Shown here in pieces: positions 12,201 through 15,200 of a stretch of 64,000 nucleotides of DNA; the first letter of the stretch is position 1, and each line of letters begins with the position of its first letter. The position numbers were made by a program, and so were the translations under genes. This DNA is from Actinocorallia herbida (GTDB lineage Bacteria; Actinomycetota; Actinomycetes; Streptosporangiales; Streptosporangiaceae). Location of the stretch: positions 4,092,001 through 4,156,000 of the forward strand of contig NZ_RJKE01000001.1 in the NCBI RefSeq assembly GCF_003751225.1. The letters run 5' to 3'. The notes below the pieces were generated by a model, which searched no databases, was not told the origin of the DNA, and was given only the letters and a program-made list of their open reading frames with translations.

Positions 12201-15200
12201 CGTCGCCCTCGCCAGATGGCGGAGGGATCTCGGGCAGGACCAGACCTTCCTGCATCTGGAACTCGAAGGACACGGCCGTGAAGGCAGGTTCGTGGCCGAC
12301 GCCGTCGGCTTCGAGCCCGAGCTGTCGCGGACCGTCGGCTGGTTCACGACGCTCTTCCCGGTGGTCGTGGACCCCGGCGCGGCGGCCGACCTCACCGACC
12401 CCGGGTATCTGGCCGCCGCGCTGAAGGCCGTCAAGGAGGACCTCGCCCGGGTGCCGAGCAACGGCCTGGGCTATGGCGCCCTGCGCCACCTCGGCGACGC
12501 CGCGTTCACCGCGCCCGCCCCGCAGGTGCTGTTCAACTACCTGGGCAGGTTCGACGCGGGCGCGTCCCGCGACTGGCAGTTCTCCGGCGCGGCCGGGCAG
12601 CTCGGTGAGAAGCGCGACCCCCGGATGCGCCTGCCGCGCGCACTGGAGTTCAACGCGATCGCCGAGCCGGGCCCGACCGGCGCGTACGAGCTGGTCACCA
12701 CGATCTCCTGGCCCGCCGGCCTGTTCACCGACGCCGACATCACCGTGCTCGGCGGGTACTTCCAGGCGGCTCTGACCGCCCTGTCCGCACTGGAGCAGGG
12801 CGGCCACTCACCCAGCGACTTCCCGCTGGTCCCCCTCACCCAGGCCGACGTGGACGCCCTGGACGGCCCCTCGCTGCGGGACGTCCTGCCGCTGACCCCG
12901 CTCCAGGAAGGGCTGTACTTCCACTCGGTCTTCGACGACGACTCGGCGGGCTCCTACGTCGAGCAGCAGCTCCTCGAGCTGGACGGCCCCGTGGACCCGG
13001 CCCGGGTCGCCGCCGCCGCGACCCGGCTGCTCGCGCTGTACCCGAACCTCGCCGCGCGCTTCGCCGTCCTGGCGGACGGCAGGGTCGTCTCGGTGCTGGA
13101 GAGCGGCGTCGAGGCCCCGTTCACCACGTTGGACCGGCCTGGAGATGGGCTCCCCGGCGAAGCCGGGCTCTCCGAGAGCCCGTCTCCCGGCCCATGGGTA
13201 CGGCCTGGAGATGGGCTCCCCGGCGAAGCCGGGCTCTCCAAGAGCCTGTCTCCAGGCCCATGGGTACGGCCCGGCATCACGGACGACGGGCTCCGTGATC
13301 TCGCCGAGCGCGACCGCCGGGCCGGGTTCGACCTGGCGACCGGCCCGCTGATGCGGTACACGCTCGTCCGCGACGGCTCCCGGAACGTCCTCGTGCAGAC
13401 CGTGCACCACATCATCGCCGACGGCTGGTCGGTGCCGCCGATGCTGCGGGCGCTCCTCGCCGAGTACCACGCACCCGGCAGCGTCTACCCGCGCGGCGGG
13501 TTCCCCGACTACGTGCGCTGGCTCGCCGCGCGCGACGAGGCGGAGAGCGAGCGGGTCTGGGGCGCGGAACTCGCCGGGCTGCCCGGCCCTTCGCTGGTCT
13601 CCGAGGGGCACACCCCGTCCGAGGAGTTCGCCGACACGGCCGAGGAGCCCGAGGTCGACATCGACGCGGGGGCCAGGTCGGCGGGCGTGCCGCTGAGCGT
13701 CGCGGTGCACGCCGCCTGGGCGGTGACGGTCGGCGGGATCCTGCACGGCGGGGACGTCGTGTTCGGTTCGACGGTCTCCGGCCGGGACGCGGACGTGCCG
13801 GGCATCGCGGACATGGTCGGCCTGTTCATCAACACGATCCCCGTCCGAGCGCGCTGGACCGGCACGACGACGGCCCGCGAACTGCTCACCTCCGTGCGGG
13901 ACCACCAGAGCGAGACCCTTCCGTACCAGCATGTCTCGCTGGCACGGATCGGCCGCCAGGTGGGGCACACGCCCCTGTTCGACACCCTTGTGGTGTTCGA
14001 CGTCGCGACCGACGTGGCCGGGCTGCGGCGGCCGGGAGACGAGATCGCCGTCACCGCGATCGTCAACGAGGGCGCGCCGCACTACCCGCTGACGCTCGTG
14101 GTCGAGCGCGGTCTCGACGGGCGGGCGCGGTTCAACCTGATCTACGACGGCGCGCTGCTCCGGGAGGAGGGCGCGCGGGCGATCCTGGGCACGTTCACCG
14201 GCACCCTCGCCGGGCTGCTCACCCGGCCGGACGACCTGGTCGACGAGCTGGTGCCCGGCCGCGGCCCGGAGCCGATTGTCCGGACTACCCTCGGCGGGCT
14301 GTTCGACGCGGCCGCCGAGCGCGATCCGGCGGCCACCGCGGTCACCCGGTGCGGGCTCGACGGGGAGACCCGGTCGCTGACGTACGGGGAACTCGCCTCG
14401 GCGAAGAACGCGCTGGCCTCGGCGCTGCGCGCGGCGGGCGTCGGACCCGGCGAGCGGGTGGCCGTGGCCGTCCCGCGTTCGCTGGAGCAGGTCGTCGCGC
14501 TCGTCGGGATCGTCTCGGCGGGCGGGGCCTACGTGCCGCTCGACCTGGCGTACCCGGACGAGCGGCTGGAGTACGTGCTCGCCGACGCCGCTCCGCAGGT
14601 CGTCCTGGTGGAGGCCGGGCAGCGGGACCGCTTCACGGCGCTGCTGGCCGAGGCGGGCGTCCCGGCGCGGGTGCTCGTGCAGGGCGAGCTGCCCGGGCTG
14701 CCCGAGGAGGCCGCCGCCGAGGCCGTCGAGCCCGGGTGGCACGACGCGGCCTACGTGATCTACACCTCGGGCTCGACGGGCCGGCCCAAGGGCGTCGTCG
14801 TGCCGCACTCGAGTGTGGTGACGCTGCTCGCCAACACTCAGCCCGAGATGGGCTTCGGCCCGGACGACGTGTGGGTGCAGTTCCATTCCTATTCGTTCGA
14901 CTTCGCCGTCTGGGAGCTGTGGGGCGCGCTGGCGCACGGCGGTGAACTGCTGGTGCCCGAGTACGGCCTGACGCGCTCGCCCGTCGACTTCCACAGGCTG
15001 GTCCGCGAGCGCGGGGTGACCGTGCTCAACCAGACCCCGTCGGCCTTCTACCAGTTCATCGAGGCCGACAGGCTCGCGGCGAAGCCCCTCCCGGCGCTGC
15101 GCCGGATCATCTTCGGCGGCGAGGCGCTCGACCTCGGGCGGCTGCGCGGCTGGGTCGAGCGGCATGGGACCGCGACGCCCGAGCTGGTCAACATGTACGG

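Follow-up and report, generated by a model that had tools for sequence, protein, structure and literature searches.

In-frame palindromic repeats of Actinocorallia probably form a mobile family resembling the palindromic elements of Rickettsia

Short palindromes that sit in frame within protein genes have been described for Rickettsia and for some bacteria rich in repetitive extragenic palindromes (REPs), as far as the accounts available to us extend. Lengths reported for the Rickettsia palindromic elements (RPEs) are 105-146 or about 150 bp, RPE-4 and RPE-6 being short CGTC-tagged repeats, and the available text of these reports demonstrates no mobiliser for them (PMC2229807, PMC10969869, PMC3733652). 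Here we describe a comparable element from Actinocorallia herbida, encountered as two adjacent 66-bp copies within a nonribosomal peptide synthetase (NRPS) gene. The gene lies in a stretch of 64,000 nucleotides, hereafter the window (NZ_RJKE01000001.1, positions 4,092,001 to 4,156,000). With a probability of about 0.8, these copies are members of a mobile, non-autonomous palindrome family that behaves like RPEs.

A preliminary description of the window had placed two near-identical units at positions 13135-13200 and 13201-13266, and the sequence agrees: the units start 66 bp apart, match at 63/66 positions (95%), and are in frame within the portion of the NRPS open reading frame (ORF) that encodes a condensation domain (Table 1). 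Judging by the other copies of the family, the 66-bp length was correct, but the natural limits lie one base further on and the conserved orientation is that of the minus strand. Both units are self-complementary, as had been claimed. Unit 1 folds at -43.7 kcal/mol (z -4.05), a value that 1 of 200 dinucleotide shuffles equalled, and unit 2 folds at -45.5 kcal/mol (z -6.07), which none of 200 did. The outer stem formed by GGCCTGGAGA and TCTCCAGGCC is perfect in unit 2 and interrupted at position 13188 in unit 1.

Excision of both units had been said to restore a normal condensation-domain sequence, and homologous proteins bear this out. The insert of 44 residues (132 bp) has no counterpart in 24/24 aligned homologues. 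Six of these are close, at 77-82% identity, and their DNA is continuous across the site, reading FT[TV]L[DE][RL]PG; the printed net gap in the six is 43, with a one-residue difference elsewhere accounting for the discrepancy. In the solved PvdL domain, which can be aligned to either side of the insert, 22 residues stand where the window has 62. A structural model places the insert as a coil between a strand and a helix, with a predicted local distance difference test score (pLDDT) of about 30, which agrees weakly with the surface loop that had been envisaged; this model was built from four window sequences and is poor (mean pLDDT 50.1).

The unit also occurs elsewhere in the host genome, where a BLAST search with one unit as query returned 62 rows at E up to 10, a count that takes in weak and opposite-strand rows. 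A covariance model built from 28 units gave 104 rows, of which 70 were used as units, the others being opposite-strand shadows, partial or weak rows. The best row is copy 2 of the window, which also belonged to the training set of the model. Overall, about 70 copies are distributed over about 48 places of the host chromosome (9.80 Mb); some of the 48 used for context are supported by weak rows (E to 0.125). The model found 52 matches to a diverged version of the unit in Actinocorallia sp. API 0066, copies that BLAST alone missed, and at E up to 0.01 it found no match in another congener (G001) or in 57 more distant relatives (60 genomes including the host). BLAST also gave one short match in G023 (26 bp) and one in G042 (28 bp); both are confined to the core and were left out of the count. 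In a collection of genome contigs, from which the host itself may be absent, no stretch had the host-type core pattern, and all 32 stretches with the congener-type core came from one genome. On the basis of these searches, the family appears small and so far restricted to the genus. A phage origin and a plasmid origin were considered and rejected: one exact core pattern was found in 0 viral contigs, and there was no plasmid match at E 1e-5.

Units lie inside genes at 20 of 89 sites (12/48 in the host and 8/41 in API 0066, with genes called as codon-score ORFs), in 15 cases antisense and in five sense relative to the gene. The likeness to RPEs that had been drawn from the two window copies is supported for the family, which is a dispersed palindrome found in frame in many genes. 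Pfam backs nine of ten scanned host proteins that carry units: TetR, acyl-CoA dehydrogenase, GNAT, pyridine-nucleotide reductase, sigma factor with DUF6596, LysR, CobB/CobQ, magnesium-chelatase-type and GrpB proteins. The tenth has no Pfam match and was called PHP-like by eye, and two NRPSs bring the host total to twelve genes. By eye, the ORFs that span units in API 0066 encode polyketide synthase (PKS), NRPS, ABC, MOSC and urocanate-hydratase proteins, among others. One of the API 0066 loci has three tandem 69-bp units, adding about 69 residues to a PKS-looking protein (L195, G002:C43:85309-85522). In the host, neighbouring CobB and chelatase-like genes about 2 kb apart each carry an insertion (L070, G000:C1:7821778-7823770).

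Relatives were compared for eight of the twelve host genes, and in all eight cases they are without the insert, the frame resumes and the domain continues. Protein alignments presuppose whole codons, and what they show is this resumption and continuation. The added loops measured in host genes span 18-46 residues. For CobB the insert is missing in 28/29 rows, the remaining row being unaligned there but insert-free in another alignment, and relatives are shorter by 39 or 36 residues, depending on the relative. The insert of the chelatase-like protein lacks a counterpart in 21/21 relatives that aligned (18 residues fewer than L082, with other relatives differing by a few residues), and the sigma factor exceeds 13/13 full-length relatives by 32 residues, a 14th being truncated. 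The insert of the FAD reductase is missing in 14/14 relatives, with 46 residues fewer in 11, 45 in one and 47 in two. Relatives have about 22 residues fewer for LysR (8/8), 23 fewer for the acyl-CoA dehydrogenase (1/1) and 27 fewer for the PHP-like protein (1/1). For two genes BLAST coordinates lead to the same conclusion in DNA, with insert lengths of 69 bp for the acyl-CoA dehydrogenase gene and 138 bp for the PHP-like gene of API 0066, and comparison of congener DNA reveals filled and empty sites at matched loci. In the PHP-like gene, the units of the host and of API 0066 occupy different positions, each of which is empty in the other congener; most simply, these would be separate insertions made after the lineages parted.

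It had further been proposed that a mobile element tolerates coding DNA by keeping its length in multiples of three. The dispersed palindrome, in frame in many genes, is there, but the length rule is not supported for the units at large: multiples of three account for 25/25 intragenic units versus 44/87 intergenic units (Fisher 8e-7); at gene ends the figure is 4/10. The split is partly circular, given that an ORF spans a unit only if the frame is kept, and therefore the homologue comparison is the evidence that counts. With half of the intergenic units free of the rule, selection on insertions explains it better, and frame-keeping looks like a reflection of such selection rather than of element design. 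Open frames number 187/240 in host units and 180/198 in API 0066 units, and since a rough estimate predicts about 0.74 per frame, the host value is not remarkable. Reading frame and strand vary among the inserted peptides. This speaks against one peptide being selected for, and no function of the inserted peptide is indicated.

In minus-strand order, a unit comprises the linker GTACCCAT, an outer 5' arm, about eight unpaired bases that lie on one side of the outer stem only, the inner hairpin CCCGGC-TTC-GCCGGG, and an outer 3' arm that ends about CCGGGCC. Unit sizes are mostly 66-69 bp in both genomes, and API 0066 units are mostly 69 bp (29/52). The inner stem of API 0066 is mostly CCCGAC/GTCGGG, versus CCCGGC/GCCGGG in the host, which is a paired change. 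Pairing between a unit's own arms is 0.83 in the host and 0.86 in API 0066, compared with 0.71 and 0.79 when arms are exchanged between sites, and in neither genome did any of 500 shuffles reach the observed pairing (one unit per site, 43 host and 40 API 0066). In a looser version, 18% and 27% of single swaps reach the observed mean, the 0/500 test being one that judges the whole set. Stem pairing is maintained despite varying stem sequence.

The seven bases before the first unit of an array favour CCGGGC[C/T]. Matches to CCGGNCY, a motif picked after inspection of the flanks, at a minimum of 5 of the 6 positions scored precede 30/46 host arrays and 20/41 API 0066 arrays, compared to 3% of random positions. 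The sequence CCGGGC[C/T] also closes most units, so that the end of a unit can itself serve as a new target. Within arrays the units lie head to tail, and local duplication is likely their main source because neighbours are more alike than units of different sites (identity 0.85 versus 0.68 in the host, and 0.92 versus 0.78 in API 0066). In the host, the left flank resembles the unit end site by site (0/1000 shuffles; 0/2000 for single units), as target duplication would give. In 5/17 host arrays and 1/9 API 0066 arrays, the outer junctions are equal and the inner one differs from them. The largest array in the host unit list has five diverged consecutive units and lies close after a small ORF (L051, G000:C1:3352404-3352740). 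Terminator hairpins were suggested as the target by a few sites and were set aside, as stems of 6 bp or more accompany 9/67 intergenic sites versus 10-11% of control motif positions. Among intergenic sites, 4/67 follow a stem of 10-11 bp, a count to be read with a control rate known for stems of 6 or more only. At one locus, a unit lies between the inverted flanks AAGGACGGAA and TTCCGTCCTT, as if it had entered a terminator loop (L037, G000:C1:1193197-1193270).

A mechanism can be sketched for such a mobile family. An enzyme might recognise the folded strand and insert it next to CCGGGC[C/T], which would also be the element's right end, and arrays would then grow mainly by local head-to-tail duplication. 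In this GC-rich genome most units would be open in any one frame. Insertions of 3n length into tolerant loops might survive as Gly/Pro/Ser-rich peptides, with selection removing the others from genes. A more specific proposal, to which we give tentative credence at best, is that the units represent a separate class of coding-tolerant mobile palindrome. Its mover would be neither Y1/RAYT nor a reverse transcriptase and would recognise the covarying two-stem fold; the element's own end, CCGGGC[C/T], would recreate the target so that arrays build, and the class would keep adding loops to enzymes of the genus, including megasynthases. Filled and empty sites at matched loci, together with a congener in which no unit was found, make the mobiliser searchable by gene presence and absence, and the same comparison makes the cost of inserts to enzymes measurable. 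Furthermore, odd inserts of 22-23 residues in NRPS or PKS domains of the genus may be mobile DNA and not functional loops.

Certain observations count against a mobile family of this type and must be weighed. Movement is inferred from comparison and not from direct observation, gene limits are our own codon-score ORF calls, and four of the twelve host genes (TetR, GNAT, the second NRPS and GrpB) fall outside the comparison with relatives. The scan of 60 genomes used stricter filters, with 82 candidates scored per genome, so weak copies could escape. The arm-swap control leaves subfamily relatedness through shared ancestry in place, and the RNAalifold covariation term is +0.22, with 4/16 pairs changed on both sides, a low value that we attribute in part to misalignment in an imperfect MAFFT alignment. 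Repeats between flank and unit end are not significant in API 0066 (177/1000; 776/2000 for single units), and the end of the last unit in host arrays resembles inner ends (3.85 of 5) more than it does the left flank (3.59). Finally, no mobiliser was found in profile searches for Y1 transposases and reverse transcriptases.

Both enzymes were rejected as movers, as their profiles revealed no intact gene in three genomes (the host, G001 and API 0066). The reverse transcriptase profile (PF00078) matched 0/3 of these at E up to 0.1, and the Y1 profile (PF01797) matched nothing in G001 or API 0066, with control genomes positive for each. Host matches to PF01797 are two fragments only, one with an internal TGA and one of 66 amino acids. 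These fragments (L111, G000:C1:6341542-6341817; L112, G000:C1:5911332-5911460) have no listed family place nearby.

These searches bear on the rival that survives best, a REP/REPIN-type element whose mover would be a Y1 (RAYT) transposase. IS200/IS605 elements likewise insert beside a fixed short motif, and the placement of units is REP-like, with 25 convergent, 33 unidirectional and 10 divergent sites and one more unassigned. At 34/58 sites the unit lies 30 bp or less from a flanking stop codon, a placement described for REPs in the available text of PMC3733652. Such an origin is nonetheless unlikely, given that GTAG or CGTC begins 0/122 units and that API 0066 has 52 matches to the family and none to PF01797. 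Somewhat less probable still is a structured RNA or bidirectional terminator family that functions near gene ends and occasionally spills into genes. Retention of the hairpin through sequence change, the excess near stop codons, the surplus of convergent over divergent sites (p 0.017) and the few long stems preceding intergenic sites would fit this role. It accords poorly with the 20 sites within genes, the lack of matches in G001 and the 57 other relatives, the lack of stem enrichment at the target, and the lack of any Rfam family at threshold within the window. An ordinary NRPS loop copied on the spot, by tandem duplication or slippage, would account for two adjacent copies of 95% identity. 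Without mobility, however, this origin is hardly credible, given about 70 copies spread over about 48 places, both between genes and in genes unrelated to one another, as the BLAST rows elsewhere attest, and given homologues that have no precursor loop.

If the units are mobile palindromes of the RPE kind, they are so by description: like RPEs, they are palindromes that form a long hairpin, and they are found both between genes and, with the frame kept, within many conserved protein genes that are unrelated to one another. The size of 66-69 bp sets them apart from the long RPEs (RPE-4 and RPE-6 being short), and they further differ in being GC-rich, in forming head-to-tail arrays at a CCGGGC[C/T] target, in lacking a CGTC tag, and in belonging to an actinomycete rather than an obligate intracellular alphaproteobacterium. 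These contrasts hold for RPEs as the available accounts portray them. Open-licence literature on actinobacteria and Actinocorallia yielded no report of in-frame palindromes. As for a classical miniature inverted-repeat transposable element, with its target-site duplication, the similarity of flank and unit end is significant in the host and not in API 0066. Mycobacterial interspersed repetitive units are short tandem repeats between genes in an actinobacterium, and no description is known that presents them as inserted in frame, with stems that covary, in conserved enzymes.

REPs tagged with GTAG or CGTC, as presented in the available text of PMC3733652, are likewise dispersed hairpins found mostly near gene 3' ends and sometimes within ORFs, and the CGTC families are also without a dedicated transposase. 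The Actinocorallia units differ from both in their greater length, nested stems and head-to-tail arrays, from the GTAG type in having no GTAG tag (0/122) and no associated intact Y1 (PF01797) gene, and from the CGTC type in that CGTC or TGTC starts 0/122 units (PMC3733652). The main text of that paper does not contain the word actinobacteria, although REP-like sequences without a tag are noted there for M. tuberculosis (PMC3733652). REP counts for three Actinomycetota genomes are listed in the RepRanger paper (PMC12306157), and therefore the presence of REP-like repeats as such in the phylum is no novelty. Those cases differ in being predicted extragenic repeats of other genera, and the words intragenic and tandem are missing from the main text (PMC12306157). 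The GTAG-23 REPs of T. roseum are clustered and inserted in small GC palindromes with the consensus CCGSSCC, which resembles the CCGGGC[C/T] flank (available text of PMC3733652); the sites of the present family are spread over the chromosome.

Table 1. Positions of the two element copies and associated features in the window (MFE, minimum free energy)
Feature	Position	Strand	Basis
NRPS gene, 3673 aa	9289..20310	+	ORF list and translation
Condensation domain that received the insertion	about 12862-14235		Matches to solved PvdL, microcystin and surfactin synthetase condensation domains
Element copy 1, 66 bp, natural boundaries (first given as 13135-13200)	13136..13201	-	Covariance-model hit 4105129-4105201, minus strand
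Element copy 2, 66 bp, natural boundaries (first given as 13201-13266)	13202..13267	-	Covariance-model hit 4105195-4105267, minus strand
Outer-stem arm of copy 2	13202..13218		Inverted pair I3, 88% complementary with 13242-13258; MFE structure
Outer-stem partner arm of copy 2	13242..13258		Inverted pair I3; MFE structure
Inner hairpin of copy 2, CCCGGC/GCCGGG with 3-base loop	13219..13233		Sequence; MFE structure
Inner hairpin of copy 1	13153..13167		Sequence; MFE structure
Target-like flank CCGGGCC directly before the array	13268..13274	-	Sequence
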